A stretch of 64,000 nt of DNA from Arthrobacter sp. 35W (GTDB taxonomy: Bacteria > Actinomycetota > Actinomycetes > Actinomycetales > Micrococcaceae), in the NCBI RefSeq assembly GCF_000482545.1, contig NZ_KI519455.1:1363247-1427246 (forward strand). The letters run 5' to 3'. A model generated the notes under the pieces. The model worked only from the letters and a program-made list of their open reading frames with translations, was not told where the DNA came from and did not search any database. Position numbers and translations under genes: made by a program. Positions 45,180 through 61,499 of this stretch are shown in pieces. The number at the start of each line of letters is the position of its first letter. The first letter of the stretch is position 1.

Positions 45180-45202
45180 ATGAGCCGATTGGATACTTGA
45201 CA

Positions 45203-48200
45203 ATGTTGTCGACCTCGACTGCACCATCGCGGCACCGCTTTGCCGCGTTGTTGGCCACAGGCGCCATAGCCTTAACGTCTTTACAGCTTGTTCCCACCGC
45301 CGCCATGGCCGCGGAAAACCCCACCGTGTTGACCCCCAACCCCGCGCAGGCCGGCCCGGCCTTCAAAGGCTGGGGCACCAGCCTGGTCTGGATGGCCAAC
45401 GCCACGGGCAACTACCCGGCCGCCATCCGCAATGACCTGATTGACAAGGTCTTTGGCGACGACGGCCTGAACCTCAACATCGCCCGCTACAACATCGGCG
45501 GCGGCAACGCCAGCAACATCCCCGACTACCTCCGCCCGGGTGGAGCCGTCCAGGGCTGGTGGAATCCCAACGCAAACCTGAGCGACGGCTCAGGTCCCAT
45601 CACCTCCAGCTACGCGGACCGCAACCGGTACCTCGCAGCGTGGACCGGCGACAACGCCTCGGACTACAACTTCAATGCCGACGCCTCGCAGCGCGCATGG
45701 GTTTCTGCCATCAAGGACAAGGTGACCACCTGGGAGGCCTTCAGCAACTCGCCGCCCTACTTCATGACGGAGAGCGGCTACGTCAGCGGCGGGCAGGACC
45801 CCAACGCCGACCAGATCAAGCCCGGCGCCATTGGCAAGTTCACCAAGTACCTCAAGACGGCCGCACAGCAGGTGGAGCAGTCCGCCGGAATCAAGTTCGA
45901 CACCATCAACCCGCTCAACGAGCCCAACACCAACTACTGGAAGACCACCTTCGGCGGCAACGGCCTGCCCAACGGCGGCGGCCAGGAAGGCGCCCACGCG
46001 GGCCCCGGCCTCCAGTCGCAGGTGCTGACGGCCATGGCCGCCGAGCTCGCCAAGCCGGGAACCACCACCACAGCCAAGGTGTCAGGTCCCGATGAGACGT
46101 CTCCCACCGGCTTCATTACCGACTGGAACGGGTGGACGGCGCAAACCAAGCAGGCCGTCAGCCAGCTCAACGTCCACACCTACTCCACCGGCGACCGCCT
46201 CGGCGTCCGGGACATCGCCAAGGCAGCCGACAAGCCGCTGTCCATGAGCGAGGTCGAGGGCAACTGGGGCGGCGACTCCTGGAACCCCACCAGCATCGAT
46301 AACGGCCTGGGCATGGCATCGCGCATCACCGATGACCTGCGCGAGCTCGACCCGGAGTCCTGGGTCTTGTGGCAGCCCGTTGAAGACCTCTACAACATGC
46401 AGCTCGGCGAGAAGAAAAACTGGGGCTCCGTCTTCATCGACTTCGATTGCAACGCCGACGGCAAGTCCGCCCGGCGGATCGCCGCCGGAGAGGCGGACCC
46501 GACATGCCGCACCACTGTGAACTCGAAGTACAACACCATCCGCAATTTCACCCACTACATTGCCCCCGGCGACCGCATCATCCCCACCAGCGACGGGAAG
46601 ACCACCTCGGCGCTGAAGCAGGACGGTTCGGGGCTGACCATGGTGCACACCAACGATTCCGATCAGGCACACACCGTCAAGCTGGACCTGTCCCGATTTG
46701 CCACCATTGCACCGGGTGCCACGGTTACTCCTATCACCACCACCGAGTCCCCCGCGGGCAGCCCGACGGCCAACGCCCTGGTCTCCGGCACGCCCGTCGC
46801 GATCGACGCCGGCAGCCGATCGGCCACGCTGACCGTCCCCGCGAAGTCCGTCACCACCTTCGTCATCACCGGCGCCACCGGTGTTGCCGCCGCGGCTCCG
46901 GCAGTGCTGGATGGCCAGTCCTACAGCTTCGTCGGGGTCCAGAGCGGACGGGCCGTGACGGCCTCCACCGGCTCGCCGGCAACGGTGCTGGGCGATTCCG
47001 TCGCCGGGGCCAACCAGGTGTGGAAGGCCACCCGGATTGTCGATGAAGAGGGCACCACGCGCGACCGTTTCGCCCTGCGGCTCGCCGACGGCCGCACCCT
47101 GGCCGCCGACGCCAACGGAACGACGCTGCGGACGCTCACCGATGCGCAGGCCCTCGCGGACACCTCGGCCCAGTGGATGGTCAGCACCACCGATGGAACC
47201 TCCTTCAGCCTGCTCAATGCGGGCCGCGGACAGGTCCTGGACGTCTCCAACCAGTCAACGGCCAACGGATCCTGGATTGGCCTGTGGACCTCCAATGGCG
47301 GCGCCAACCAGGCGTTCACCCTGCGCAATGCCAGTGAAGGCACCGGTTACAACAGCTTCCGTCCCGGCCAGGATTGGCGCGACAACAACGGCAATCTGAT
47401 CCAGGCCCACGGCGGCCAGGTGGTCACCTCCAAGGACGCTGCCGGCCGCACCATCTACTACCTGTACGGCGAGGACCGCACCAACGGCTACCACTCGTCC
47501 CCGGGCGTGCACGCCTACAGCTCCTACGACCTCTACAACTGGAAGGATGAGGGCGTGGCGCTGAAGGCCATGACCTCCCAGGCCCAGTTCACCACCGATC
47601 CCTACTTCCAGACGCTCTATGCCGGGTACACCACCGAGCAGAAGAACGCCGTCTACCGCGACCTGGGAACCGTGCCGTCCGGCGACAAGCTGCCGCCGAT
47701 CCTTGAGCGGCCCAAGGTCATCTACAACGCCGCCACCCACAAGTGGGTCATGTGGGTCCATGCCGACGGTCCAACCGATCAGTACAACGTGCAGTACGCC
47801 AAGGCCAACGCCGGCGTCGCCATCTCCGACACGCCCTTCGGCCCGTTCAAGTACATCGACAGCTACCGCCTGAACAAGGCGGCAGCGGGAGACCCCACCA
47901 ACAAGGCGCCGAACAACCCGGGCATGGCCCGCGACATGAATCTCTTCGTGGATGACGATGGCACCGGCTACATCATCTACTCCAGCGAAGAGAACAAGAC
48001 GATGTTCATTTCGAAGCTCAACGCCGACTACACCAACCTTTCCGCCTCGCCGGACACGGCAGTGGAGGGCGTCGACTTCCGGCGTGCGTTTGTCAACGAT
48101 TCCCGCGAAGCACCGGCCATTTTCAAGTACCAGGGCCGTTACTTCATCATTTCCTCGGGGACCAGTGGTTGGTCGCCGAACCCGTCCAGATTTGGCACGG

Positions 48201-49501
48201 CCACCAGCATGCTCGGCGAGTGGAGTGACGCGGGCGACCCTTTCAGCAGTGATGTCTCATGGAACTCCAACAACTCGCAGCCGACATCCGTCATTCCGGT
48301 CGATCCCGCCAACGGCAAGTTCATCTACATGGGAGACCGTTGGAACGGCGGATCCGACCAGGCACTGGCCACCGCCCCCATGGTGTGGCTGCCCATTCAA
48401 ATGGGTGAGGGGGGCAAGTCGCTCAGCGTCGTTTCACCTTCCGAATGGCGTCTGGCAGATCTCGATTCCAACGCGGTCTGGAATGTCACGGGCGTTCCTT
48501 CCAGTCTGGCCATGGGCCAAACGTTCAGTGTCAACACCGTCACCGTGACCCAGAATGGCCAGAGCTCCTCCCAGGCTGTGACTTGGCAGGTCAGGGGAAA
48601 CACCAACACCGCGGGGTCCATCACTGTCACGGGCACCCTCCCAGGATTTGGCGGGCGCACCTTCACCCGCACCATTCCGGTGCTGCCTGTGGGAGTGCGC
48701 TATGCCGTGAACGCTGGCGGGAAGACGACGGCGGACTGGTCCGCGCTGATGGCCGCCGCTGCGCAAACCGGCCCGGTTCTGAACAGCAAAGCCGACCAGC
48801 CGTACGGCGTCGACCCTGTCACGGGGAAGACCTGGGGCTATGAAAGCGAAGGCAGCGGGGCCAGCGGCACCGACGTTGGTGACATATTCTCAACCCTGCG
48901 CTATGCAGCTTCCGGGCGCGATCTGACCTACAAGTTCAACGATCTGGCTCCGGGAACCTACACGGTCTACGCGGGCTACTATGATCCGTGGGCCCAGTGG
49001 GACGACCGCGGTGCCAAGGTGACAGTCAACGGTGCGGTGGTCGAGGCCGACCACGACTACAGCGGCGACTACCAGACCGGCACGTACCAGAACGTCACGG
49101 TGGGTGCCGATGGCAAGCTCTCCTTCGCCCTCAGCCCCACCCGCGGTCCGGACGTGCAACTGAGCTGGCTGATGATCGCCAACCCGGTCCCGACGGTCCC
49201 GGCGGCCCCGGCGCTGAACGTCTCCGTGGCGGCAACCGCCAAATGTGTTTCGGGGAAGGTCATGGTGACGGTCCAGGCGACCAACAATGCCACGGTGCCC
49301 GTCCAGATTGGCTTCACCTCGACGTACGGGACGAAGTCGTTCGCCGACGTCAAGCCCGGCAAGAACGCCGTGAACGCCTTCGCCACCCGGGCTGCGACCA
49401 TCCCCGCCGGTGTCGTGACGGTCCAGGCGGCCGGCACCGTAAACGGCCAGCCGGCCACCGTGTCCAAGGACGCTGCGTACCCCGCAACATCCTGCAACTA
49501 A
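45203..49501 (+). CDS. Secreted GH30 galactanase fused to GH43 exo-beta-1,3-galactanase-like module
   Basis: Extracellular multidomain enzyme of 1,432 residues. A Sec signal ends about residue 36 (PTAAMA). The GH30 module (about 40-555) has the acid/base Glu in NPLNEPNTNYW and the nucleophile Glu in PLSMSEVEGNWGG; ARYNIGGG matches the endo-beta-1,6-galactanase subgroup. A beta-trefoil-like domain (569-710) precedes the GH43 module (about 718-1082) with AHGGQVVTSKD, RDMNLFVDDDGTGYIIYSSEE and YMGDRWNGG, resembling subfamily 24 exo-beta-1,3-galactanases. A Big-type domain (1091-1163), a carbohydrate-binding-like domain (1165-1330) and a Cys-bracketed C-terminal domain (1338-1432) follow. Together the two catalytic modules could attack both side chains and backbone of type II arabinogalactan. 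ATG 45203 follows a -10 closely, so the transcript may be leaderless. Confidence 0.88.
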   Translation: MLSTSTAPSRHRFAALLATGAIALTSLQLVPTAAMAAENPTVLTPNPAQAGPAFKGWGTSLVWMANATGNYPAAIRNDLIDKVFGDDGLNLNIARYNIGGGNASNIPDYLRPGGAVQGWWNPNANLSDGSGPITSSYADRNRYLAAWTGDNASDYNFNADASQRAWVSAIKDKVTTWEAFSNSPPYFMTESGYVSGGQDPNADQIKPGAIGKFTKYLKTAAQQVEQSAGIKFDTINPLNEPNTNYWKTTFGGNGLPNGGGQEGAHAGPGLQSQVLTAMAAELAKPGTTTTAKVSGPDETSPTGFITDWNGWTAQTKQAVSQLNVHTYSTGDRLGVRDIAKAADKPLSMSEVEGNWGGDSWNPTSIDNGLGMASRITDDLRELDPESWVLWQPVEDLYNMQLGEKKNWGSVFIDFDCNADGKSARRIAAGEADPTCRTTVNSKYNTIRNFTHYIAPGDRIIPTSDGKTTSALKQDGSGLTMVHTNDSDQAHTVKLDLSRFATIAPGATVTPITTTESPAGSPTANALVSGTPVAIDAGSRSATLTVPAKSVTTFVITGATGVAAAAPAVLDGQSYSFVGVQSGRAVTASTGSPATVLGDSVAGANQVWKATRIVDEEGTTRDRFALRLADGRTLAADANGTTLRTLTDAQALADTSAQWMVSTTDGTSFSLLNAGRGQVLDVSNQSTANGSWIGLWTSNGGANQAFTLRNASEGTGYNSFRPGQDWRDNNGNLIQAHGGQVVTSKDAAGRTIYYLYGEDRTNGYHSSPGVHAYSSYDLYNWKDEGVALKAMTSQAQFTTDPYFQTLYAGYTTEQKNAVYRDLGTVPSGDKLPPILERPKVIYNAATHKWVMWVHADGPTDQYNVQYAKANAGVAISDTPFGPFKYIDSYRLNKAAAGDPTNKAPNNPGMARDMNLFVDDDGTGYIIYSSEENKTMFISKLNADYTNLSASPDTAVEGVDFRRAFVNDSREAPAIFKYQGRYFIISSGTSGWSPNPSRFGTATSMLGEWSDAGDPFSSDVSWNSNNSQPTSVIPVDPANGKFIYMGDRWNGGSDQALATAPMVWLPIQMGEGGKSLSVVSPSEWRLADLDSNAVWNVTGVPSSLAMGQTFSVNTVTVTQNGQSSSQAVTWQVRGNTNTAGSITVTGTLPGFGGRTFTRTIPVLPVGVRYAVNAGGKTTADWSALMAAAAQTGPVLNSKADQPYGVDPVTGKTWGYESEGSGASGTDVGDIFSTLRYAASGRDLTYKFNDLAPGTYTVYAGYYDPWAQWDDRGAKVTVNGAVVEADHDYSGDYQTGTYQNVTVGADGKLSFALSPTRGPDVQLSWLMIANPVPTVPAAPALNVSVAATAKCVSGKVMVTVQATNNATVPVQIGFTSTYGTKSFADVKPGKNAVNAFATRAATIPAGVVTVQAAGTVNGQPATVSKDAAYPATSCN

Positions 49502-49622: not shown

Positions 49623-50246
49623 ATGAACAGAATTGGATTTGCCGCGCGTTGCACCACTGCGGCCGTGGGTACGGCGCTGCTGCTGGGCGTTGCCGGCATG
49701 GCGATGGCCGAAGAGAACCACGGCAACAAGGATGTGGATGTCAGCGTTGGCATCACCGCCCTGCCCGGCGGCGGCGCGTTGGCCATGAGTGTTGCCGGCA
49801 CCACGACAACCCTTACCGAGACGGGTTCGACGGCGACCGTGCGCCAGTTCACGGGCTCGCTGCCGACTGTCACTGTCACTGACACCCGGGCACCGGCGGA
49901 CATACCCGCCGGGGCCAGCTGGTACGTGCTGGGCACCTCGACCGATTTCACCGGTGACAATGGCCAGCCTGCGATCAGTGCCGCCCACCTGGGGTGGACG
50001 CCGGACCTCATCAACGGTGGCGATTCGGGGCTGGTGGCCGAGGGTGATCGGGTGGACACCGTGATGGAGACCGGGCCGAATGCCGTGGGTCTGGTTGACC
50101 GGGAGCTGCTCGCGATGGCCTTCGATTCCGGTGCCATCGCCTCCGAGGGGCAGTGGACGGCCACCGCGGGCCTGTTCCTGCGCACACCGGCGACGGTCGC
50201 TGCAGGCGACTACACCGCGAGACTGACCCTGTCCCTGTTCGAATAA
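49623..50246 (+). CDS. WxL-like secreted cell-surface protein (copy 1)
   Basis: Secreted protein of 207 residues. A Sec signal (TAAVGTALLLGVAGMAMA) ends near residue 28. The mature part is beta-rich, Thr/Ala/Gly-rich, with LPTVTVTDTRAPADIPAGASWYVLGTSTDF and a C-terminal AAGDYTARLTLSLFE, resembling the WxL domain of Gram-positive surface proteins (tryptophan-containing strand, then a final LTWxL-like strand, here LTLSL). WxL proteins bind the cell wall and work with DUF916 proteins, and one is encoded downstream. It is paralogous to the gene at 56115. The ATG follows the repeated leader TTCTGCAAAGGATTTTCC. The WxL assignment is by resemblance. Confidence 0.68.
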   Translation: MNRIGFAARCTTAAVGTALLLGVAGMAMAEENHGNKDVDVSVGITALPGGGALAMSVAGTTTTLTETGSTATVRQFTGSLPTVTVTDTRAPADIPAGASWYVLGTSTDFTGDNGQPAISAAHLGWTPDLINGGDSGLVAEGDRVDTVMETGPNAVGLVDRELLAMAFDSGAIASEGQWTATAGLFLRTPATVAAGDYTARLTLSLFE

Positions 50247-50277
50247 CCGGCAACGACGCCGACAGAAAGAGACCATC

Positions 50278-53169
50278 GTGACAATTGCAAGCACCCCGCT
50301 CAACCGGCGGGGATTCCTCGCCACCACGGCACTGGCTGTCGGCGCCGTCGCCTTCCCCTTTTCACAGCGTGCGGCCGCTGCCCCGCCAGGGTCCGCCGTC
50401 CTCCCAGAGCGCGGAATCTATGACACCGTCCCCGCTTCGTCCTGGTCCGAAGGGTTCGTGTCGGGCAATGGCGAGTACGGGGCCATCTTCCATGGCACGC
50501 CGGGCGCCGAGAGGGTTGTCTTCAACCACCACCGCTTCGTACTGCCCAACGGCACGCGTGGGATGAAGGCCCCCTACCTCGCCGACCGCCTGTCCCAGGT
50601 CCAGGACAAGGCCATGGGAGGGGACTACTGGGGCGCGGCATCGACGTTTGCGTCAGGCTGGGACCTGCAGTGGACGCAGTCGTTCCACCCAGGCTACGAA
50701 CTGCTGATCACCAGCGCAGACCTGTCGACATACAACGACTACGCGCGGACCACGAACTTCAGGACCGGCGAGGTGGCCACCTCGTGGTCCGACAATGCCG
50801 GCCTCTGGAAGCGCAGGGCCTTCGTGTCCAGGGCCAGCACCGCCGTCGTCCAGGAACTCCTGCCGGCGGCGAACGGCACGATCAATACGGTGCTCAGCAT
50901 CAATACCAACCTCGACGCCGTGCCGTCCTCCGTCTCCTACGGGACCACAGCAACCGTCAGCGGGCGCAACGGGTACCTGGGGCTGCGGGGCACCTACCCG
51001 GCCGGCCAGGGAGCCTTCGGATATGAGGGCGTGACGCGCGTCATCGTCACGGGAACCGGTTCGTCCATCACGACGGATGGGTCGACGCTGACCATCGCCA
51101 AGGCCACCAAGGTGATCCTGTTGACCAAGCTGGGACGGTACGAGTCGGCCAGCGAATGGAACAGCAAGCCGCTGCACGCTGCCCTGGGCGTTCTGCTGGC
51201 CGATTACGATGCCCTGCTGCGCAAGCACACGCCGCTGCACCAGGCACTCTTCGACAAATCCTCGCTGCAGCTCAATGTTTCCCAGGAGGACCGCGCACTG
51301 TCCACCAGCGAGCTCAATGCGCGCCAGAATTCGGACCGCTCCACCATCGACCTCGCCCTGTTGGAGCGGATGTACGACTCCGGACGGTACTTCTTTGCCA
51401 GCTCCAGCGGCGTCCTGCCGCCACGCCTGACGGGCATCTGGACCGGCAGCTGGGATGGGGCCTGGGCCGATGACTTCACCACTGACGCCAACATCAACCT
51501 CCAGGTTGCCGGCGGCAACATCCTCAACCACGGCGATGCGATGAAGGGCTACTTCGATCTGGTCCTCGGCCAGCTCAATGACTGGCGCAGCAATGCCACC
51601 CGGATGTACGGGGCCCGCGGGTTCCTGGCCCCGAGCCGGACCGATGGTGAGCACGGCAACATGCTCCACTTCAATGGTGATTTCCCCGGCCAGACCTGGA
51701 CCGGCGGCGCCGACTGGATGCTCTACCCGCTGCTGGAGTACTACCAAGTCACCGGTGACGAGGCCTTCATGAGGGACAAGCTCGGACCGGCCTTGATGGA
51801 ACTGGCACTCTTCTACGAGGACTACCTGTCCCGGACGGATGCGCAGGGGAAGGCGGTCTTTGTGCCGTCCTTCTCGATGGAAAACTCGCCGTCGAACACC
51901 GGCCAGATGGTGTCCATCAATGCCACCGGGGAGATCATGGCGGGCCGCCATGCCCTGGAGTCGGCCATTCTGGCGGCAAATACGCTCAACCGTGAGCAGG
52001 GGGCCGGCCAGGGCGTGGCCCGGTGGACGGCGCTGCTGGCCAAGCTCCCCAGCTACACCATCAATGGCGACGAAGCCCTGGCCGAATGGTCCTGGCCCGG
52101 GCTGAACGACCGCTACAACCACCGGCATGTCCACCACATGTATGGGGCCTGGCCGCTCCACGAGGTCAACCCGGAGGACAAGCCCGCTCTGGTGCGCGCA
52201 TCGCACCGTGCACTGGAATTGCGCGGCGATGAGAACTACTCGGCGCATGGCAGCCTGCACCGCGCGTTGGCTTCCGCCCGGCTCAAGGATGGTGCCGGTG
52301 TCTACACCAACATCAAGAAGGTGCTGGGCAACAACATGGTGCTGCCCTCGCTCATGACCACACACAATCCCGGGCTGCACATCTACAACTCGGATGCAGC
52401 CAACTCACTCCCCGCAATTCTGGCCGAAGCGTTGATCTACAGCCGCCCCGGCATGTTGGAACTCCTGCCCGCCCTGCCCGAACAACTGTCCAAGGGTTCC
52501 ATCCAGGGTGTCCGTGGACGCAACCGGGTGCTCGTGGAGAACCTCGTGTGGGACACAGCTGCCCGAACCGTGCAGGCCACGCTCACCTCCGACATCAACC
52601 AGAGCCTTGAGCTGGTGTGCCGCAGGGGGATCACCGCCATCACCGCTTCCGCAGGGGTGTTGGGCGCATCCTCGATCGGTGGCCATGCCCGCACCCTGCA
52701 ACTGTCGGCCGGCGTGTCCACCGTCATCCAGATCAGCCTCCTGCCGACGCTCGTCAAGGTGGTCAACCGTATGAGTGGAAAGGCCATGGACGTCGATGGC
52801 CAATCCACCAGCGACGGCGCCGCCGTCATCCAGTGGCCCTGGGGCGGCGGTGACAACCAGAAATGGAAGCTGGTTCCTGTCCACGACGGATCGTTCCGCA
52901 TCGTCAGCGTCAAGAGCGGAAAAGTGCTCGACAATCCGGCGTCGTCAGCGGCCAACGGCACGCAATTGGACCAGTGGAGCGACACCTACGGCCCCAACCA
53001 ATGGTGGAAGCTGGTTCCCACCGGGAGCGGCTCCTACTACCGTTTGGTGAACGTCTCCAGCGGACTGCCCCTGGACGTGGCGGGGGCTTCCACCTCCGAC
53101 GGCGCGCGCTTGGTCCAGGCGACTGCCACCAGCTCCCAAAGCCAGGAGTGGAGCCTCGACGCCGTCTAG
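50278..53169 (+). CDS. Secreted GH95 alpha-L-fucosidase/galactosidase with ricin-type lectin domain
   Basis: Extracellular enzyme of 963 residues. The N-terminus NRRGFLATTALAVGAVAF is a Tat signal, so it is probably exported folded. The GH95 N-domain begins YDTVPASSWSEGFVSGNGEYGA; the catalytic (alpha/alpha)6 barrel contains TTDANINLQVAGGN, matching the paired asparagines of GH95, PSFSMENSPS with the likely catalytic Glu, and HVHHMYGAWPLHEVNP. A C-terminal CBM13/ricin-type trefoil (about 825-963) shows three QxW-like repeats (NQKWKL, NQWWKL, SQEWSL). GH95 enzymes remove terminal alpha-L-fucose or alpha-L-galactose, which occurs on arabinogalactan proteins. Unlike the other enzymes here it lacks the shared C-terminal domain. 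Confidence 0.88.
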   Translation: MTIASTPLNRRGFLATTALAVGAVAFPFSQRAAAAPPGSAVLPERGIYDTVPASSWSEGFVSGNGEYGAIFHGTPGAERVVFNHHRFVLPNGTRGMKAPYLADRLSQVQDKAMGGDYWGAASTFASGWDLQWTQSFHPGYELLITSADLSTYNDYARTTNFRTGEVATSWSDNAGLWKRRAFVSRASTAVVQELLPAANGTINTVLSINTNLDAVPSSVSYGTTATVSGRNGYLGLRGTYPAGQGAFGYEGVTRVIVTGTGSSITTDGSTLTIAKATKVILLTKLGRYESASEWNSKPLHAALGVLLADYDALLRKHTPLHQALFDKSSLQLNVSQEDRALSTSELNARQNSDRSTIDLALLERMYDSGRYFFASSSGVLPPRLTGIWTGSWDGAWADDFTTDANINLQVAGGNILNHGDAMKGYFDLVLGQLNDWRSNATRMYGARGFLAPSRTDGEHGNMLHFNGDFPGQTWTGGADWMLYPLLEYYQVTGDEAFMRDKLGPALMELALFYEDYLSRTDAQGKAVFVPSFSMENSPSNTGQMVSINATGEIMAGRHALESAILAANTLNREQGAGQGVARWTALLAKLPSYTINGDEALAEWSWPGLNDRYNHRHVHHMYGAWPLHEVNPEDKPALVRASHRALELRGDENYSAHGSLHRALASARLKDGAGVYTNIKKVLGNNMVLPSLMTTHNPGLHIYNSDAANSLPAILAEALIYSRPGMLELLPALPEQLSKGSIQGVRGRNRVLVENLVWDTAARTVQATLTSDINQSLELVCRRGITAITASAGVLGASSIGGHARTLQLSAGVSTVIQISLLPTLVKVVNRMSGKAMDVDGQSTSDGAAVIQWPWGGGDNQKWKLVPVHDGSFRIVSVKSGKVLDNPASSAANGTQLDQWSDTYGPNQWWKLVPTGSGSYYRLVNVSSGLPLDVAGASTSDGARLVQATATSSQSQEWSLDAV

Positions 53170-53175
53170 GTGATA

Positions 53176-53205
53176 CTGGCGGCTCGTCATTTGACGGGCC
53201 GCCAG
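53176..53205 (+). terminator. 14-bp hairpin after the GH95 gene
   Basis: CTGGCGGCTCGTCA pairs with TGACGGGCCGCCAG with one G-U position, seven bases after the stop. It occupies the same position as the hairpins after the flanking GH43 genes. Confidence 0.55.
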
Positions 53206-53257
53206 CGCCCCCCCATTTTGTCCGGACCGGTGCCGGATTTCTGCAAAGGATTTAGTG

Positions 53258-55996
53258 ATGTACAGAATCGCTTTCGCCGCGAGGTGGTCGGCCATTGCCG
53301 CGGCTACAGCATTGTCCTTCGGCATCGCCGGCATGGCGATGGCTGCCCCTGTCGTTGTCAATGCCGGAACCGGCACGGCAGCACCAACGGTGGCCGCCGA
53401 GGCACCCGGGGTCCAGGATGGACAATCGTACAGTTTCGTTGGTGTTCAAAGCGGCAGGGCCGTGACGGCGTCCACCGGCTCCCCGGCGACAATCCTTGGT
53501 GACAACGTCGCCGCGCCCACGCAGGTCTGGAGGACCACCCTCATCGCCGATGAGGCCGGCACCACGAATGACCGCTTTGTCCTCAGGCTCGCCGATGGCC
53601 GTGTCTTGGCAGCCGATGCCAACGGGACGGTCCTGCGCACGATCACCGATGAGGAGGCAGCCGCGGATGCTTTGGCCCAGTGGCTGTTCAACTCTACGGA
53701 CGGAACCTCGTTCAGCATCCGCAACGCCGGACGCAATCGGGTACTTGATGTTTCAAACCAATCCACGCAGTCCGGGGCCTGGATTGGCCTGTGGACCTTC
53801 AACGGAGGGGCGAACCAGGCGTTCACCCTGCGGAAGGCAAGCGAGGGTGAGGACTATGACAGCTTCAGGAACGGCCAGGACTGGCGGGACAACAATGGAA
53901 AGGTGATCCAGGCCCACGGAGGCCAGGTTGTCACATCGAAAGACGAATCGGGACGGACGATCTACTACCTGTACGGGGAGGACCACACCTTCGGCTACAG
54001 CGACTCCCCTGGTGTGCACGGGTATAGTTCCTACGATCTGTACAACTGGAAAGACGAAGGCGTCGCCCTCAGGGCTCTGTCGTCGCGAGAGCAGATCGAC
54101 ACGGATCCGTATTTCACCGCGCTCTACGGGAATTACAGCCAGGAGCAGCGAGCCGCGATATATCGGGATCTGGTAACTACCCGCACGGATCCTCAGATGC
54201 CCGCGGCCACCATGTGGCGTCCCAAGGTGATTCACAATGAGGCCACCGGAAAATGGGTGATGTGGTTCCATTCCTCCGGCCCCTCCGAGACATCAAATGC
54301 GATCTATGCAAAGGCCCGCGGCGGCGTGGCAATTTCCGATTCGCCCTTTGGGCCGTTCCGCTACATCGACAGTTACCCGCTGCATCACGCCGACCCCTCG
54401 GATCCCACGAACCACGCACCCAACAACCCCGGTATGGCGCGGGACATGAATCTCTTCGTGGACGATGACGGTACTGGATACATCATCTACTCCAGTGAAG
54501 AGAACCAGACGATGTTCATTTCCAAGCTGAATGCCGACTACACCTACCTTTCGGCTCCACCAGAGTCTGCTGTCGAAGGTGTTGACTACAAGCGCATATT
54601 CGTCGGATGGTCCCGGGAAGCCCCGGCGATGTTCCGCCATGGCGATCGCTACTTCCTCCTCACGTCGGGCACCAGGGATTGGACCCCCAATCCCACACAG
54701 TATGCAACGACAACCAATATTCTTGGTGACTGGACTGCCCTGGGAGACCCCTTCCCGGGTTGGGCACAGCACAACGCTTGGGACACGCAGCCCACATCCG
54801 TGATTCCTGTGGACCGTGAAAAAGGAAAGTACATCTACATGGGTGACCGCTGGAATGGCGGAACGGACCTGGCCAACGCGCAGATGGTGTGGCTTCCACT
54901 GGACATGGCGGAGGGAGGCGATGATTTTTCCGTGGTTCTCAAGGATGAATGGAAACTTGAAGACCTCGACGACCATGCCGTCTGGGACGTGTCCGGCATC
55001 CCCGCAAGCCTCACCGTCGGCTCGGCCTTCAACGTCAGCACTGTGACTGTCACGCAGAACGGCCAGAGCAGCACCCAGGCTGTGCAGTGGCAGGTCAGCG
55101 GAAACACCAGCGCTCCCGGCATCATCACGGCCACCGGCACGCTTCCCGGTTTCGGCGGCCGGACCTTCACCCGCGCCATCCCGGTGGTGCCGGTGGGCGT
55201 CCGCTATGCGGTGAACGCCGGTGGAAAGGCGACGGCGGACTGGACAGCGCTGATGGCAGCCGGGTCGGCGTCGGGCCCGGTGCTCAACAGCACCGCAGAC
55301 CAGCCGTACGGGGTTGACCCGGCAACGGGGAAGACCTGGGGCTATGAAAGTGGGGGCAGCGGCGTTGAAGGCACTGCCGACGGCGACCTGTTCACGACGC
55401 TGCGCTATGCCACCGGTGGGCGCGATCTGACCTACCGTTTCAACGATCTGGCACCGGGCACCTACACGGTCTATGCCGGCTACTACGATCCGTGGGCCCA
55501 GTGGGATGACCGCGGCGCCAAGGTGGCTGTCAACGGTTCCGTGGTCGAGGCCGACCATGACTACAGCGGGGACTACCAGTCCGCTGCCTACCAGAACGTC
55601 ACGGTGGGTGCCGATGGCAAGCTCTCGTTTGCCCTCAGCCCCACGAGGGGGACGAATGTGCAGCTGAGCTGGCTGATGATCGCCAACCCGGTCCCCGCGG
55701 CGCCACAGCTGGACGTCTCCGTGGTGGCCAGTGCCAAGTGTGTGGCTGACAAGGTCATGGTGACGGTCCAGGCGACCAACAATGCGGCGGTGCCCGTCCA
55801 GCTCAACTTCACGTCAGGTTACGGAACGAAGTCGTTCGCCGAGGTCAAACCCGGTAAGAATGCGGTGCAGGCCTTTGCGACCCGGGCTGCCACCATCCCG
55901 GCCGGTGTCGTGGCGGTCCAGGCGACCGGCACCGTGAATGGCCAGCCGGCCACTGTGTCCAAGGATGCTGCGTTCCCCGCAACATCCTGCAACTAA
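53258..55996 (+). CDS. Secreted GH43 exo-beta-1,3-galactanase-like enzyme
   Basis: Extracellular enzyme of 912 residues. A Sec signal ends near residue 29 (GIAGMAMA). Domain order is beta-trefoil-like (54-195), GH43 (about 203-568; AHGGQVVTSKD, MARDMNLFVDDDGTGYIIYSSEE, YMGDRWNGG), Big-type (about 576-648), carbohydrate-binding-like (650-815) and the Cys-bracketed C-terminal domain (818-912). It is a paralogue of the second half of the GH30-GH43 gene. ATG 53258 is preferred to GTG 53255 because it aligns with the MNRIGFAAR starts of the WxL-like genes and lies 7 bases after AAGGA. It probably removes galactose from beta-1,3-galactan main chains, bypassing branches. Confidence 0.87.
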   Translation: MYRIAFAARWSAIAAATALSFGIAGMAMAAPVVVNAGTGTAAPTVAAEAPGVQDGQSYSFVGVQSGRAVTASTGSPATILGDNVAAPTQVWRTTLIADEAGTTNDRFVLRLADGRVLAADANGTVLRTITDEEAAADALAQWLFNSTDGTSFSIRNAGRNRVLDVSNQSTQSGAWIGLWTFNGGANQAFTLRKASEGEDYDSFRNGQDWRDNNGKVIQAHGGQVVTSKDESGRTIYYLYGEDHTFGYSDSPGVHGYSSYDLYNWKDEGVALRALSSREQIDTDPYFTALYGNYSQEQRAAIYRDLVTTRTDPQMPAATMWRPKVIHNEATGKWVMWFHSSGPSETSNAIYAKARGGVAISDSPFGPFRYIDSYPLHHADPSDPTNHAPNNPGMARDMNLFVDDDGTGYIIYSSEENQTMFISKLNADYTYLSAPPESAVEGVDYKRIFVGWSREAPAMFRHGDRYFLLTSGTRDWTPNPTQYATTTNILGDWTALGDPFPGWAQHNAWDTQPTSVIPVDREKGKYIYMGDRWNGGTDLANAQMVWLPLDMAEGGDDFSVVLKDEWKLEDLDDHAVWDVSGIPASLTVGSAFNVSTVTVTQNGQSSTQAVQWQVSGNTSAPGIITATGTLPGFGGRTFTRAIPVVPVGVRYAVNAGGKATADWTALMAAGSASGPVLNSTADQPYGVDPATGKTWGYESGGSGVEGTADGDLFTTLRYATGGRDLTYRFNDLAPGTYTVYAGYYDPWAQWDDRGAKVAVNGSVVEADHDYSGDYQSAAYQNVTVGADGKLSFALSPTRGTNVQLSWLMIANPVPAAPQLDVSVVASAKCVADKVMVTVQATNNAAVPVQLNFTSGYGTKSFAEVKPGKNAVQAFATRAATIPAGVVAVQATGTVNGQPATVSKDAAFPATSCN

Positions 55997-56001
55997 ATCC
56001 A

Positions 56002-56035
56002 TGGTGGTGGCCCGCTCCACCGCGGGCCACCACCA
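56002..56035 (+). terminator. 14-bp perfect hairpin after the second GH43 gene
   Basis: TGGTGGTGGCCCGC and its complement flank the loop TCCACC, five bases after the stop. It corresponds to the hairpin at 49504-49543, with compensating changes in both arms (GGCGGC/GCCGCC versus GGTGGC/GCCACC), which suggests the structure is under selection. Confidence 0.65.
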
Positions 56036-56114
56036 GGCTCCTTCAACGTTCCACCTTGATTGCTCCACCCGTTCAGTGCGGCCGACGGCCGGGCTTCTGC
56101 AAAGGATTTTCCTG

Positions 56115-56747
56115 ATGAACAGAATTGGATTTGCCGCACGCGCCTCGACAGTGGCCGTGGGCACGGCGCTGCTGCTTGGCGTTGCCGGCATGGCAATGGC
56201 CGAAGAGAACCACGGCGACAAGGATGTGGATGTCAGTGTTGGCATCACTGCATTGCCTGTCGGCGAGGCGTTGGCCATGACCGTTTCGGGCACCACGCCG
56301 GGGACCACGACCCTCGGTGAGGAGGGCTCGACGGCCACGATGCGCCAATTCAACAGCACGCTGCCGACCGTCACCGTCACGGACACCCGGGACCCGGGGG
56401 ACATCCCCGCCGGGGCGGGCTGGTACGTGCTGGGAACCGCCACCGATTTCACCGGCGACGCCGGCCAGCCTGCCATCAGCGCCTCCCACCTGGGCTGGGC
56501 ACCGAGGATCCTCAGCGGCGGAGAGTCGGGCCAGGTTGTCGAGGGCGAGCGGGTGGACACGGTGATGGACTCCGCTCCCATCACCTCTGGCCTGGTTGAC
56601 CAGGAGCTGCTCGCGCTGGCCATCGATTCTGGTGCCATTGCCTCCGAGCGGCAGTGGACGGTCACCGCGGACCTGTTCCTTCGCGTCCCTGTGACCGTCG
56701 CCGCGGGCGACTACACCTCCACGCTGACCCTCTCGCTGTTCGAATAA
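56115..56747 (+). CDS. WxL-like secreted cell-surface protein (copy 2)
   Basis: Secreted protein of 210 residues, paralogous to the product of 49623-50246 along its full length. The Sec signal (MNRIGFAARASTVAVGTALL, ending GMAMA) is nearly identical, followed by EENHGDKDVDVSVGITALP and LPTVTVTDTRDPGDIPAGAGWYVLGTATDF, and the C-terminal AAGDYTSTLTLSLFE. It precedes a DUF916 protein and a LAXTG protein, the gene order of csc-type WxL clusters, and probably forms a wall-bound complex with them. Confidence 0.7.
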   Translation: MNRIGFAARASTVAVGTALLLGVAGMAMAEENHGDKDVDVSVGITALPVGEALAMTVSGTTPGTTTLGEEGSTATMRQFNSTLPTVTVTDTRDPGDIPAGAGWYVLGTATDFTGDAGQPAISASHLGWAPRILSGGESGQVVEGERVDTVMDSAPITSGLVDQELLALAIDSGAIASERQWTVTADLFLRVPVTVAAGDYTSTLTLSLFE

Positions 56748-56770
56748 CCAACCAGGAATTGCCACCACCC

Positions 56771-57856
56771 ATGGAAACCACCTCCCGGGCACACGTCCAC
56801 CCCACCCTCTTGCACCGGATCGCCATCGGCATCCTGGTGCTGTTCGCAATCGTGGCGGCCGGCCTTGCCGGCATCCCCGCAGCCTCCGCCACCAGCGGCG
56901 ATGCGGGTGGAGACCCCATTACCTGGGCCGTGGGCCCATCCAATGAGACGGCGCCGGACGGGAGGTCATGGGTTGAACTGAAGCTCGATCCCGGCGCTGG
57001 CGCCAGCGACCGGTTCGCGGTGCGGAACCTCGGCAACCGGGAAGTCACGTTTGCCCTGACGGCCGCTGACGGATATCTGACGCCGACGGGGCGTTTCAAC
57101 ATGCTCCCCTCGGACAAGAAATCCGTGGATTCCGGCACCTGGATCTCCATGGACAAGACCGTCACCGTGGCGGCAGGTGGCACAGCAGTGGTGCCTTTCA
57201 CCGTCACGGTGCCGGCGAATGCGACACCCGGCGACCATGCGGCGGGCATCGCAGCTTCGATCTTCTCGGAGGGCGCCCCGGACGGTGCCCGGGTGGGTGT
57301 GGAGAGCCGGATCGGCTTCCGCGTCATGACCCGGGTGGCAGGGGAGGTCCAGCCGCGCCTCGAGGTGCAGGCAGCGGGTGGCTACGACGGGACCTGGAAC
57401 CCATTCCAGCCCGGATCCGCCACCATTGCTGTGGACCTTGTGAACAGCGGAAACGTCCGGCTGACAGTTGACGCCTCCGCCATGTTCAACGGCGTGCGCG
57501 CCCCCAGCGACGGAACCGAGGCGGCCCGGCCCATCGAGCTGCTGCCCGGGGACCGGCGCACCATCCAGCTCCACGAGGGTGGTGTGTGGCCGCTGGGCAT
57601 CGTCTCGGTGCCGGTGACCGTTGCCCAAGGCGTGACGGCCCTGGACGGCTCGGTCAATGACCTCGATCCGATCGTCCGGGACGTCGCCATCTGGGCCATC
57701 CCGTGGCCGCAAATGATTGTTCTCCTTGCCCTGGCCCTGGTGGTTTTCGGCATCTTCTGGGGACGCCGCCGCCGGTCCAAAGAGCTGGCCCGCCTGGTGG
57801 CCGAAGCGCGCGAAACCGGGCGCCGTGAGGCAGAGCTCCAGCAGGAGGTTGTGTGA
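56771..57856 (+). CDS. DUF916-like WxL-interacting membrane protein
   Basis: Membrane-anchored surface protein of 361 residues. An N-terminal signal (IAIGILVLFAIVAAGLAGIPAASA) precedes a DUF916-type beta domain (ITWAVGPSNETAPDGRSWVEL ... TVTVPANATPGDHAAGIAASIF, quoted in part), a second beta domain (about 200-310) and a C-terminal transmembrane helix (MIVLLALALVVFGIFW) with a basic, helical cytoplasmic tail. In Firmicutes such proteins bind peptidoglycan and partner WxL proteins. The start is ATG 56771, 23 bases after the WxL-like gene; the stop overlaps the LAXTG gene as GTGA, so the two are coupled. Confidence 0.78.
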   Translation: METTSRAHVHPTLLHRIAIGILVLFAIVAAGLAGIPAASATSGDAGGDPITWAVGPSNETAPDGRSWVELKLDPGAGASDRFAVRNLGNREVTFALTAADGYLTPTGRFNMLPSDKKSVDSGTWISMDKTVTVAAGGTAVVPFTVTVPANATPGDHAAGIAASIFSEGAPDGARVGVESRIGFRVMTRVAGEVQPRLEVQAAGGYDGTWNPFQPGSATIAVDLVNSGNVRLTVDASAMFNGVRAPSDGTEAARPIELLPGDRRTIQLHEGGVWPLGIVSVPVTVAQGVTALDGSVNDLDPIVRDVAIWAIPWPQMIVLLALALVVFGIFWGRRRRSKELARLVAEARETGRREAELQQEVV

Positions 57857-58140
57857 GGGTCTCCACGGTGGTGGCCGCTGCCCTGCTGGGGTTGGCAGCA
57901 GCCTGCTTCGCGTCGCCCGCACTGGCCTCGGAACCCGACCCCTCCGACGTCGTACTCCATGTCCGCATTGCCCCGGTCCCGGCGCCGGCCCCGGAATGCG
58001 GGGGCGGCCGTGGATGCCCTGGGCCGGAACTTGCGGCGACGGGCGCCGATCTGCGCGGCGCACTGCTGGCAGGCACCGCCGCGATCGGTGGCGGCATCTA
58101 CGTGAGGATCTCTGCACAACGGCGCGGCCGCTCCAATTGA
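57853..58140 (+). CDS. Small LAXTG sortase-substrate protein
   Basis: Surface protein of 95 residues. A signal peptide (VVAAALLGLAAACFASPALA) is followed by a short mature region with a Cys pair (Cys49, Cys55) in a Gly-rich turn. The C-terminus is a sortase signal: LAATG at residues 60-64, a hydrophobic segment (about 69-85) and a basic tail (RISAQRRGRSN). LAXTG is the motif used by class E sortases of high-GC Gram-positives. Small LPXTG proteins are a regular partner of WxL/DUF916 genes. No sortase gene is in the window. Confidence 0.8.
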   Translation: MRVSTVVAAALLGLAAACFASPALASEPDPSDVVLHVRIAPVPAPAPECGGGRGCPGPELAATGADLRGALLAGTAAIGGGIYVRISAQRRGRSN

Positions 58141-58208: not shown

Positions 58209-61200
58209 ATGACAATGATGTCGTCGTACCGAAGGTCGGACATCACGTCCGCCGTCATGGCTGTGGCAGTTGCCGCACTCATGGCCACCTGCATTGCCCT
58301 CCCGGCCCCGGCCCACGCAGACGCCGGTCCGCTGCCCACACCCGCGACGGCGGGATACGGATCCGGAACACCGATCCAGGCCGACGCTTCGACGTCGGCC
58401 CAGCACGCCGCCGCGCGCACCATTGTCGACGTCACAGCGTTTGGCGCCGACCCGACAGGGCAGGCGGATTCCGCCGAGGCGATCGCCAAGGCGGTTGACC
58501 ATGCCCGCGACGCCGGTGGCCCGACGACGATCGTCTTCCCCCGCGGCACGTACCAGATCTACCCGGAGAAGACCGAGAAGCGCGAGCTCTACGTCTCGAA
58601 CACGACCGGGGCCGACAGTGCGTACCGGATGAAGAACATCGCCATCCTCATCGAGGACATGTCCGATGTGGTGGTGGACGGGCAGGGTTCACAGTTCGCC
58701 TTCCACGGCGCCCAGACGCAGTTCGCCTCGATCCGCTCAGAGAACGTGAGCTTCACGAATTTCACGACGGACTGGGTCGCGCCGGCCACCGTCGACCTGA
58801 CGGTCCTGGACGCGGGCGTGAAGGACGGCGTCCCCTTCCGCGACATCCAGGTTCCGCCTGGCACCGGCTATCAGCTCAATGGCAGCACGGCGACGTTCGT
58901 TGGCGAAACCAGCCCGTACACCGGCAACCCGTACTGGACCTTCGGGCCGAACTCCGCAGGCAATGGCTGGAACCAGGTGCGCCACCTCGCCTCGGGGGAG
59001 ACGGTCCGCTCCGCCGCGCCGATCTGGAACTACTCCACAGGCGTGGCCGAACTGGGCGGGAACCGGCTTCGGGTCTCCTACAGCGGCAGCACTGATCCCG
59101 GCGGGCGGGGCGATGTGTACGAGATGCGCAACAGCGTCAGGGACCACCCCGCCGTCCTGGCCTTCGAGAGCACGAACACGGACCTGAAGAACCTCGGACT
59201 GGGCTATCTGCATGGATTCGGCGTGGTGGCCCAGATGTCGACAAACGTCACCGTCGACGGCGTGCGCTTCCGCAGCCAGGACGGCACCTGGCGGCAGACC
59301 TCGGGCTTCGCGGACTATCTGCAGATGTCCTCGGTGGCCGGGAAGGTCCAGATCCTGAACAGTCTCTTCGACAACCCGCACGATGATCCGATCAATGTGC
59401 ACGGAACCTACGTCCAGGTGAAGAACGTGGACGTCGCCAACAAGCGGGTCACGCTCGAGTACATGCACAATGAGACCGCCGGGTTCCCGCAGTTCTACGC
59501 CGGCAACACCTTGCAGTTCGTCAACCGCGCCACCATGCTCCCCGCCGCGGGCACGTCCTATGCCGTGACGGCCGTCAGCGGTCCGACGGGCTACGACCAC
59601 AACACCAGCCTGACCCAGATGACAGTCACCCTGGACCGGGCCCCCGAGGCCATCCAAGCGGACTCCTTCGTAGCGGAAAACCTCACCTACACCCCCGAGG
59701 TCCACATCGCCGGGAACAGCTTCGTCTCGGTGCCCACCCGGGGAATCCTGGTCACCACGCCCAAGCCGGTGCTCATCGAAAAGAACCTCTTCGACCAGAT
59801 GTCGATGGCCAGCATCTACGTCTCCGGCGATGCCCGCGGCTGGTACGAATCCGGCGCCGTCCAAGACCTCACCATCCGGGAGAACATCTTTGACCGGCCG
59901 GCCACCAGCAGCCCGGTGGTGTTCGTGGAACCGACCAACACCTCCACCGAGGCGGGCCGCACGGTGCACCGCGGCATCCACCTCGAGGACAACCGGTTCA
60001 ATTTGCTGCCCGGCACACAGCTGCTGAACGCCAGCTCGGTCTCGGACGTCACCATCACGGGCAACCACATCGGCTGGTACGGCCCCACCACCGCCCCGGA
60101 CCCCGCACGGACATCCTCCACGCCGCTGTATGCCCTGAAGGCCAGCGCTCGCGTGCAGCTCTCCGGCAACAGCTATGCTCCCGGCTTCAACGTGCGGGTC
60201 AATACCAACGGCATGGCTGCCTCCGAGATCACGGGTACCGACCCATTCGCTGTCAACCAGGATGCCCCTGTGGCCGCGCCGGTGACACCGCTGGCCAATG
60301 GGCTGGGCTGGATCCGCGAGAACCGCGCCACGTGGGCACCCGTTGCCCTGGATGCCGTCCGCCTTTCCGCGGGAAGCACCGGGCTCTGGGCTACCCAGAA
60401 CGGTGCGGAGAACATTCTGCTGCGCAACGCTGGCGCGGCCGCACCGGCCACCGTGGTGGCCAAGCTCAGCGGCGCGACCAAATCCTCCTACGAGGAGGCC
60501 GGGTTGGTCATCTACCTCAACGATGACAACTACGTGGCACTGCAGCGCAAGCACGCCAACGGCAGCCCCGTGCTCGCCGTCGTGACCGAATCCAACGGAT
60601 CGCCCAATGAGAACACCAAGATTGCCGCACCCAGCGGTACCGACGTGTGGCTGAAGCTGGCCCGCCAGGGCAGCAGCTTCACCGGCAGCTATTCAACCAA
60701 CGGCACCGACTTCACCACCATCGGCACCATTACCAATGCCGCCGTCGCCGGTGCGCCGTCCCGGGCCGGCGTCATGGCGGACGGATCGACCACCCAGGGA
60801 ACATCCTTCGTGTTCAGCGGATTGGCAGTGGACGGGTCGGCGGTACCCTTCTTCGACACGGTCCCGCCGCCCATCCAACTGTCGGCAGCACTGGGCACCG
60901 CTGCCTGGAACGGCGTGGACTTCGGCAACCCCGTGGCCACCCGCGCCTGGGTGGCAACGACACCCGCCGGCACCACCTCGGTGTCGGGGCTGCTGCCGGC
61001 CGCCGATCCCGGCACCTCGGTCCGGTTGACGCTCAATGGCCGCGCCCTCGCCGCCGGCCCGGGCGGCGCCGTCGTTGTTCCGCTGGCGGCGGGGGCAAAT
61101 GTGGTTGAGGCCCGCACCGTAGGTGCCAATGGCGACAGCCAGACCTACCGGTGGACCATCGTGTCCCTGCAGCCCGGCGTCGTGGTCAACACGATGCAGC

Positions 61201-61499
61201 CGGCGTCGACCCTGAATGTGGCACTCACGGCGGCAACGCGGTGTGTGGCCGGGAAGGTGCTGGTGACCGTCCAGGCGGCGAACAACGAGGCTGTTCCGGT
61301 GTCTGTGGTGTTCACCTCGGCCTACGGAGCGAAGTCGTTTGCCGGGGTGGGGGCGGGCAAGAACGCCGTGCAGGCCTTTACGACCCGTGAGAAATCGGTG
61401 CCGGCAGGCATGGTCGCAGTGGCGCTGACGGCCACCGTGGCCGGTGCCCCCGTATCGGTCCAGGCGCAGACCCCGTATGCCGGGACATCCTGCAGCTAG
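58209..61499 (+). CDS. Secreted GH110 alpha-1,3-galactosidase-like enzyme
   Basis: Extracellular enzyme of 1,096 residues. A Sec signal ends about residue 38 (APAHA). A right-handed beta-helix (about 70-690) carries VDVTAFGADPTGQADSAEAI, VRDHPAVLAFE and the GH110 block FDNPHDDPINVHGTYVQVKNV, the region with catalytic acids in alpha-1,3-galactosidases. A concanavalin-like DUF1349-type domain (about 695-875) and a cadherin-like strand domain (885-985) precede the shared Cys-bracketed C-terminal domain (1002-1096). Alpha-galactose caps occur on arabinose side chains of gum arabic-type polymers, a plausible target. ATG 58209 is followed by two further in-frame ATGs, so the exact start is uncertain. 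Confidence 0.82.
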   Translation: MTMMSSYRRSDITSAVMAVAVAALMATCIALPAPAHADAGPLPTPATAGYGSGTPIQADASTSAQHAAARTIVDVTAFGADPTGQADSAEAIAKAVDHARDAGGPTTIVFPRGTYQIYPEKTEKRELYVSNTTGADSAYRMKNIAILIEDMSDVVVDGQGSQFAFHGAQTQFASIRSENVSFTNFTTDWVAPATVDLTVLDAGVKDGVPFRDIQVPPGTGYQLNGSTATFVGETSPYTGNPYWTFGPNSAGNGWNQVRHLASGETVRSAAPIWNYSTGVAELGGNRLRVSYSGSTDPGGRGDVYEMRNSVRDHPAVLAFESTNTDLKNLGLGYLHGFGVVAQMSTNVTVDGVRFRSQDGTWRQTSGFADYLQMSSVAGKVQILNSLFDNPHDDPINVHGTYVQVKNVDVANKRVTLEYMHNETAGFPQFYAGNTLQFVNRATMLPAAGTSYAVTAVSGPTGYDHNTSLTQMTVTLDRAPEAIQADSFVAENLTYTPEVHIAGNSFVSVPTRGILVTTPKPVLIEKNLFDQMSMASIYVSGDARGWYESGAVQDLTIRENIFDRPATSSPVVFVEPTNTSTEAGRTVHRGIHLEDNRFNLLPGTQLLNASSVSDVTITGNHIGWYGPTTAPDPARTSSTPLYALKASARVQLSGNSYAPGFNVRVNTNGMAASEITGTDPFAVNQDAPVAAPVTPLANGLGWIRENRATWAPVALDAVRLSAGSTGLWATQNGAENILLRNAGAAAPATVVAKLSGATKSSYEEAGLVIYLNDDNYVALQRKHANGSPVLAVVTESNGSPNENTKIAAPSGTDVWLKLARQGSSFTGSYSTNGTDFTTIGTITNAAVAGAPSRAGVMADGSTTQGTSFVFSGLAVDGSAVPFFDTVPPPIQLSAALGTAAWNGVDFGNPVATRAWVATTPAGTTSVSGLLPAADPGTSVRLTLNGRALAAGPGGAVVVPLAAGANVVEARTVGANGDSQTYRWTIVSLQPGVVVNTMQPASTLNVALTAATRCVAGKVLVTVQAANNEAVPVSVVFTSAYGAKSFAGVGAGKNAVQAFTTREKSVPAGMVAVALTATVAGAPVSVQAQTPYAGTSCS

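Follow-up and report, generated by a model that had tools for sequence, protein, structure and literature searches.

A candidate WxL/WxLIP system for the surface display of secreted enzymes in Actinobacteria

Introduction

The csc gene clusters of Lactobacillus and its relatives encode a WxLIP (CscA), a small WxL protein (CscB), a large WxL protein (CscC) and a mini LPXTG protein (CscD), all of them secreted, and a role of these surface complexes in the use of carbohydrates, plant carbohydrates in particular, has already been proposed (Siezen et al., 2006; PMC1534035). In the passages of that paper that deal with them, the CscD proteins, very short and of the LPXTG kind, have no explained role and are engaged in ‘as yet unknown interactions’. 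The WxL/WxLIP pairs of Enterococcus combine a PF06030 membrane protein, with its transmembrane helix, and an adjacent small WxL protein (Hassan and Williamson, 2022; Hassan et al., 2023). For Enterococcus, it is predicted that the WxLIP contributes a strand that completes the WxL sandwich (PMC10599100), and the N-terminal strand of WxL has been singled out for possible rearrangement (PMC9772566). Here we describe a locus of the actinobacterium Arthrobacter sp. 35W, at positions 49,623–58,140 of a 64,000-nucleotide stretch (the window; contig NZ_KI519455.1, positions 1,363,247–1,427,246 of the forward strand), in which two small WxL-like proteins, a WxLIP and a mini sorting-signal protein are encoded among secreted glycoside hydrolases.

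The first-pass annotation of this stretch had read it as a csc-type cluster embedded in a locus for the degradation of plant galactan, and had suggested that the complex displays or retains the enzymes on the cell surface. The likeness to csc holds for the WxLIP, the small WxL-like proteins and the mini-protein, but it does not extend to a large WxL protein with a C-terminal WxL domain (in the window the WxL-like profile matches only the two small genes) or to the host-binding domain PF11797. Unlike csc, the locus is actinobacterial, has a sorting motif of the LAXTG type and contains separate enzymes with a common tail module, and the long form of WxL-like protein in actinobacteria is often an enzyme–WxL fusion. 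With the Enterococcus pairs it shares PF06030, the transmembrane helix and the adjacent small WxL gene; it differs in that the window proteins lack a second W-x-L motif and in that PF11797, which gave no match in the window WxLIP, was matched by only two of its 22 aligned relatives (E ≤ 0.1). In Actinomycetota, DUF916 genes and metallophosphatases have likewise been found next to Ang-2 genes in HupE-UreJ_2 neighbourhoods (Nat Commun 2025, PMC12537917); the passages describing those neighbourhoods mention no WxL-like domain on the phosphatase, no tail module and no glycoside hydrolase cargo. By analogy only, a C-terminal tag that recurs on catalytic domains of many kinds, together with a separate partner, recalls the cohesin–dockerin pairs of the cellulosome, although the WxL-like protein consists of one domain, nothing like a multi-cohesin scaffoldin was seen and the window proteins scanned gave no dockerin or cohesin match in Pfam.

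What is new is a widespread, unnamed enzyme tail module that accompanies WxL/WxLIP; in the open-licence literature searched we found no account of actinobacterial WxL proteins that go with tail-module enzymes. From family assignments, gene adjacency, co-occurrence across genomes and the near-exclusion of module and fused WxL, we on balance favour the view that these genes form an actinobacterial WxL/WxLIP system for enzyme display, which would come in two formats: the WxL domain fused to its cargo, or kept separate as a dock for the tail module. The earlier idea of display is thus strengthened, but not proven, by the existence of the tail module and of enzyme–WxL fusions.

Results and discussion

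An unnamed C-terminal module on the locus enzymes

Four of the five enzymes of the locus share one C-terminal module, some 97 residues long and containing two cysteines. It closes the GH30/GH43 enzyme (module at 49205–49498, plus strand; G000:C2:1412454 in the class-wide search below) and the GH43 enzyme (55700–55993, plus strand), where it was found with our own hidden Markov model (HMM), and the β-helix protein (61203–61496, plus strand) and GH35 (61561–61842, minus strand), where it was found in our own module search. No Pfam or NCBIfam model names it in the proteins scanned. In the 93 loci searched, 128 proteins carry it, in one copy each and always C-terminally, at a median distance of 1 residue from the protein end (95th percentile 7). 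The 125 module proteins of at least 300 residues fall into 31 clusters, and members of 21 of these were scanned for domains. The cargo includes GH43, GH127, GH59, GH53, GH30, GH35 and GH20, as well as 5′-nucleotidase, zinc carboxypeptidase, type I phosphodiesterase and ThuA/GSDH domains; three representatives showed no domain match at 1e-5, and the representative of the second largest cluster (15 members) shows binding-type domains only. Specificity for arabinogalactan or plant galactan, as first suggested, does not survive a list of cargo that runs to nucleotidase, carboxypeptidase, phosphodiesterase, GH59, GH53 and GH127.

An AlphaFold2 model of the GH43 module (residues from 55703) has seven strands and a pLDDT of 97.6. 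The fold is a generic sandwich: its best Foldseek match is the archaeal Fusexin1 (E 2.5e-3), and the further matches, to a glycosidase, a channel and other sandwiches, give no functional lead.

Linkage of module, WxL-like and WxLIP genes

Stand-alone WxL-like genes were located by scanning genome contigs with our WxL-like alignment (A2), and the best 80 of 235 relatives were taken as loci, their genes being called with our own gene caller. The genera concerned, which we take to belong to the Micrococcaceae, Microbacteriaceae, Micromonosporaceae, Streptosporangiaceae and Frankiaceae, include Arthrobacter, Agromyces, Rathayibacter, Microbacterium and Micromonospora. A module gene lies directly upstream of the WxL-like gene, on the same strand, in 67 of the 80 loci and within four genes in 75, against a background of 41 among 978 other genes with a module gene directly upstream; none of the 18 name groups has the upstream module in fewer than half of its loci. 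A WxLIP gene follows the WxL-like gene directly in 39 of the 80 loci and is present anywhere in the fetched stretch in 44. The first-pass annotation had asked whether its association of WxL-like genes with secreted enzymes would be met in other genomes. The same adjacency recurs widely, and the arrangement in the window is therefore not a matter of chance.

A class-wide draw of 394 genomes, the window's own included, was searched with A2, with the module alignment (A3) and with PF06030. These found WxL-like domains in 78, the module in 34 and PF06030 in 83 genomes, counts that can miss copies for A2 and A3, as most genomes were scored there by 9 or 12 first-look candidates. A WxL-like match was present in 27 of the 34 module genomes (odds ratio 23, p 3e-15) and a WxLIP in 65 of the 78 WxL-like genomes (odds ratio 83, p 3e-44), both p values ignoring kinship. 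For the analysis of places, which omitted six short or contig-edge WxL-like rows and unlisted rows, 144 WxL-like places were used, 37 of them in frames of at most 330 residues and 107 in longer frames. Around the short frames the module lies within 2.5 kb in 24 cases, always upstream, and within 10 kb in 32, and a WxLIP lies within 2.5 kb in 13; around the long frames a WxLIP lies within 2.5 kb in 72 cases and the module in 2, both of which are probably stand-alone genes in long frames. There are thus two formats, a WxL fusion with a WxLIP or a module enzyme with a separate WxL-like gene.

A catalytic Pfam domain was detected in 12 of the 23 long WxL-like proteins scanned (metallophosphatase in 6, alkaline phosphatase in 3, and M64 peptidase, glycerophosphodiesterase and GH18 in 1 each). 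Beside PF06030 genes, the C-terminal WxL-like domain is carried by alkaline phosphatases (L019, L022, L025), by a metallophosphatase (L024) and by two proteins without a Pfam match (L018, L023).

Enzyme–WxL fusions adjoining a WxLIP gene can be seen at L019:6965-8878 and L024:10812-12719 and in loci L154, L156-L158, L160, L193 and L204. At L170:4329-5990, a WxLIP gene also adjoins the gene of an HtaA protein, of the haem-binding type, that ends in a WxL-like domain.

Family identity of the WxL-like proteins and the WxLIP

The small proteins (WxL-like 1, 207 residues, 49623–50246; WxL-like 2, 210 residues, 56115–56747; both plus strand) had been called WxL-like in the first-pass annotation. Neither matches the Pfam WxL model (PF13731), and direct comparison of the small proteins or their profile with Pfam, NCBIfam and PDB sequences gave no useful match. 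Both lack the two W-x-L motifs, the first reading W-Y-V and the second L-T-L; D-T-R is present and the W is invariant. A profile made from seven fused actinobacterial WxL-like domains, none of them from the window, nevertheless finds WxL-like 2 at E 1.6e-25 and WxL-like 1 at E 7.4e-23, with no other gene type below 1e-3 in the 80 loci. In the class sample of other genomes, of the 68 PF13731 places listed at least 30 are also A2 places, a lower bound from a comparison with a subset of A2 places, and so are 10 of the 27 places over the Pfam cut-off; in alignment A4, 6 of 54 rows match PF13731 at E ≤ 0.1. In the fused domains a D at W-8 and an R at W-6 precede the first tryptophan, as in WxL domains described in the relevant part of PMC9772566; in the stand-alone forms shown, five additional residues are inserted in this D/R-to-W region. 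Judged by the fused-only profile and by the places their family shares with Pfam WxL, the two small proteins are divergent relatives of WxL; the first-pass name is upheld by this route where the Pfam model had failed.

One of the seven fused domains, L032, was first considered a clean bridge to Pfam WxL but is only borderline, scoring 25.1 bits against PF13731 with its neighbours in frame and 21.9 in another scan (cut-off 25); the bridge therefore rests on the shared PF13731/A2 places. The protein at L027:8492 scores 24.8 bits. In the same genus, L027:8492-10883 and L028:8194-10566 each hold two small WxL-type proteins and a WxLIP, with no module protein in the fetched 20 kb.

The product of 56771–57856 (plus strand, 361 residues) exceeds the gathering score of PF06030 (32.2 against 27.3 bits; E 1.2e-7, Pfam), in agreement with its first description as DUF916-like, and ends in a hydrophobic stretch, as for a transmembrane helix, followed by RRRR (by eye). 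Each of the 22 relatives in the alignment has a PF06030 match with E ≤ 0.1, and their profile (A5) matches the solved Enterococcus EfmWxLIP1 (9i25/9i1y) at E 1.8e-5. Because PF06030 is matched over the cut-off and the family profile matches EfmWxLIP1, the protein is, by homology, a WxLIP relative. Within the family to which the window genome belongs, PF06030 was found in 12 of 149 genomes. It was also detected in a Thermotoga maritima control, that is, outside Gram-positive bacteria.

A possible mechanism of display and its alternatives

In the mechanism we propose, secreted enzymes would carry the Ig-like C-terminal module as a dedicated tag, and the small WxL-like protein would act as a separate dock that takes it, a contact suggested by gene linkage. 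The membrane-anchored WxLIP would in turn bind the WxL-like protein and hold it at the cell surface, assisted in the window, we suggest, by the sortase-anchored LAATG mini-protein. Other actinobacteria have the WxL-like domain fused to an enzyme or another secreted domain beside a WxLIP, with the module almost never near. The benefit may lie in the use of galactan-type polymers. Our main reason for proposing docking is that the module and the fused or long-frame WxL nearly exclude each other. If the proposal is correct, many soil and plant actinomycetes share an undescribed means of retaining secreted enzymes on the cell, the C-terminal tag would be exchangeable and could serve for surface display in high-GC Gram-positives, and WxL/WxLIP would widen from a topic mainly of adhesion in gut Firmicutes to a system that holds enzymes. 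An explanation would also be offered for the mini LPXTG proteins, which Siezen et al. left open in the part of their paper that treats them (PMC1534035).

Several observations weigh against this mechanism. The 80 loci are best-scoring and related, so that their counts are not independent events; direct adjacency is weakest in Rathayibacter (9 of 17 loci); and 36 of the 80 loci have no WxLIP in the fetched flanks, some of which end at contig ends. A third WxL-like copy in the window genome likewise has no WxLIP in the fetched 20 kb around it (L017). Among the long WxL-like proteins scanned, 11 of 23 have no catalytic domain, showing an HtaA domain, a repeat or nothing. Finally, the GH95 enzyme of the window has no module, and 7 of the 34 module genomes have no WxL-like match even with a second search included, two of which (G163 and G444) hold several modules and PF06030. 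These last two points favour another explanation, in which the genes would be neighbours without contact, the module being an autonomous wall- or glycan-binding tail and the WxL-like protein and WxLIP a separate, co-expressed surface layer. Autonomous binding tails are common on secreted enzymes, which adds to the appeal of this explanation. We nevertheless think it rather unlikely, as the module gene sits directly upstream of the WxL-like gene in most loci whatever the cargo, and as an autonomous tail would not predict the rarity of the module beside long-frame WxL-like genes (2 of 107).

As to how a docked WxL-like protein might itself be held, the WxLIP would do so through a shared strand, which we propose because of the pilin-like structural matches, the unpaired N-terminal strand and the strand prediction for Enterococcus. 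In the AlphaFold2 model of mature WxL-like 2 (pLDDT 89.9) the N-terminal stretch is unpaired; it contains a conserved alternating strand, DVDVSVGI (56223–56246, plus strand). The donor-strand pilins CfaB, CsuA/B and FimG are among the best Foldseek matches of the model (E 1.7e-3 to 1.3e-2, TM 0.36–0.48), with no match at E 1e-3 or below and an rmsd mostly of 5–15 Å; GH123 domains are interspersed with pilins in the top ten, and no chain of the EfmWxLIP1 entries is among the 50 best listed matches. The same strand was considered as the partner of the tail module and set aside, since fused WxL-like domains, which occur without the module, keep it.

These matches bear on two further explanations. 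The small WxL-like protein could be a surface glycan binder, SusD-like in function, that passes substrate to the enzymes, display being secondary. Such a role would suit its place in loci for polysaccharide use, where an ABC transporter and a LacI-type regulator lie nearby (by eye), and sugar binding was suggested for csc proteins in the corresponding passage of Siezen et al. (PMC1534035). However, the module is also found on a nucleotidase, a peptidase and a phosphodiesterase, where glycan is not expected, and the best solved fold matches, weak as they are, are sandwiches of the pilin type and not lectins; we consider this role improbable. Still less probable, in our judgement, is a donor-strand fibre or layer of WxL-like subunits on the WxLIP and the LAXTG mini-protein with the enzymes incidental, as the several pilins among the best solved matches and the unpaired conserved strand would allow, for it leaves the module linkage unexplained, the same top matches include GH123 domains and no evidence of a polymer was seen.

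Layout of the locus and its genome

The gene order, the coordinates and the coupling of the last two genes, WxLIP and LAATG protein, by a GTGA overlap (57853–57856) are as given in the first-pass annotation. WxL-like 1 and WxL-like 2 are separated by two genes, and the WxLIP gene comes directly after WxL-like 2. Signal sequences of the locus proteins were judged by eye. The five enzyme-type genes in or beside the stretch begin with a GH30 + GH43 + ricin-B enzyme (45197–49501, plus strand; PF14587, PF04616, PF14200) with a Sec-type signal, upstream of WxL-like 1. Between the WxL-like genes are a GH95 enzyme with a ricin-B domain and a twin-arginine-like signal (50278–53169, plus strand; PF22124, PF14498), absent from the module matches, and a secreted GH43 enzyme (53258–55996, plus strand; PF04616). 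Beyond the mini-protein come a secreted β-helix/GH43_C2/DUF1349 protein (58209–61499, plus strand; Pfam) and a GH35 enzyme with a twin-arginine-like signal (61558–63999, minus strand; PF01301), which runs past the window end and has 1004 residues in locus L029. By eye, lysS- and clpC-like genes flank the hydrolase locus upstream (at about 40–45 kb), and a sugar-type ABC transporter, a LacI-like regulator and further enzyme-like genes lie past the window end.

The N-terminus of the GH43 enzyme resembles that of the WxL-like genes, signal peptide included (38% over residues 1–87; fourth match, E 2.9e-4), which suggests local duplication of the signal region.

The genome (4.66 Mb, 4 contigs) has one PF06030 gene, three WxL-like copies and one sortase. 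The third WxL-like copy (L017:9997-10533; G000:C1:1174157) adjoins GH35 and GH20 enzymes with the module, and its signal region is apparently frameshifted.

Mini-proteins with a sorting signal

The last gene of the locus (57853–58140, plus strand) encodes a CscD-like protein of 95 residues. The LAATG motif (58030–58044, plus strand), hydrophobic stretch and basic tail that had been noted in it are present, as judged by eye, and the NCBIfam model NF058583 (LAXTG_small_WW) matches it weakly (16.1 bits, cut-off 65). Besides this LAATG motif the genome has its one sortase at G000:C2:1097154, with pabA- and PASTA-like neighbours (by eye) that may hint at its class. Sorting motifs of the LAXTG type have elsewhere been assigned to class E sortases, in the part of PMC5148588 that concerns specificity. 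Mini-proteins are infrequent: a sorting-signal open reading frame lies at most 0.9 kb downstream of 6 of 45 WxLIP genes, the window's included, against 6 of 1059 other genes, and a mini-protein was seen in 10 of 22 Bacillota stretches.

In several clusters, among them those of two enterococci, the start of the mature mini-protein resembles that of an adjacent small WxL protein (KEVQQVETEGSIRFTG and DEVRKVTTEGKIEFRP in E. mundtii; NYDSNGVTAF and NYDSNGVITF in E. raffinosus). A tentative extension, possible though not one we would rely on, is that WxL is held by donor-strand exchange and that in CscD proteins, in Bacillota and Actinomycetota alike, sortase anchors a copy of the WxL N-terminal strand, which captures WxL and in Actinobacteria serves enzyme display, with the module in the role of a dockerin. 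Over 16 mini-protein/WxL pairs the mean shuffle z was 2.4, and for 9 of the 13 clusters tested the WxL window that matches best begins among the first 10 residues; mini-proteins pair specifically with the WxL strand of their own cluster in the Bacillota sets (p 0.004), a specificity that the actinobacterial sets do not show (p 0.69). The 16 pairs left out L077, L079, L080 and L210 (a near copy of L165), and 13 of them entered the window-rank test; of the three small WxL proteins of L220 the third was used, picked after reading them, of the two of L217 the second, and for L215, whose mini-protein is annotated as two pieces, the first piece alone. A cluster added afterwards has two WxL proteins; the N-terminal window ranked 1 of 33 in one of them and 32 of 34 in the second. 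Against such wall-anchored strands, the shuffle p was at least 0.05 in 10 of the 16 pairs, and the window's own pair was not significant (z 0.3, rank 10 of 28), its mini-protein sharing the alternating pattern only, in the strand DVVLHVRI (57946–57969, plus strand; identified by motif). That alternating motif occurs in 11 of 11 actinobacterial mini-proteins, in 52 of 54 WxL-like N-termini and in 277 of 10232 control windows, but it was written post hoc and the comparison is not a test. We regard the likeness of mini-protein and WxL strands as a lead and not a result.

The WxLIP gene at L026:7918-9444 (minus strand) runs on into a second secretion-like segment with an alternating strand and an LPETG signal (by eye), as if a WxLIP and a mini-protein had been fused. 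On Enterococcus plasmids, genes annotated as lytic polysaccharide monooxygenase are found beside WxL clusters (L212:11260-12312 and L224:2561-3925).

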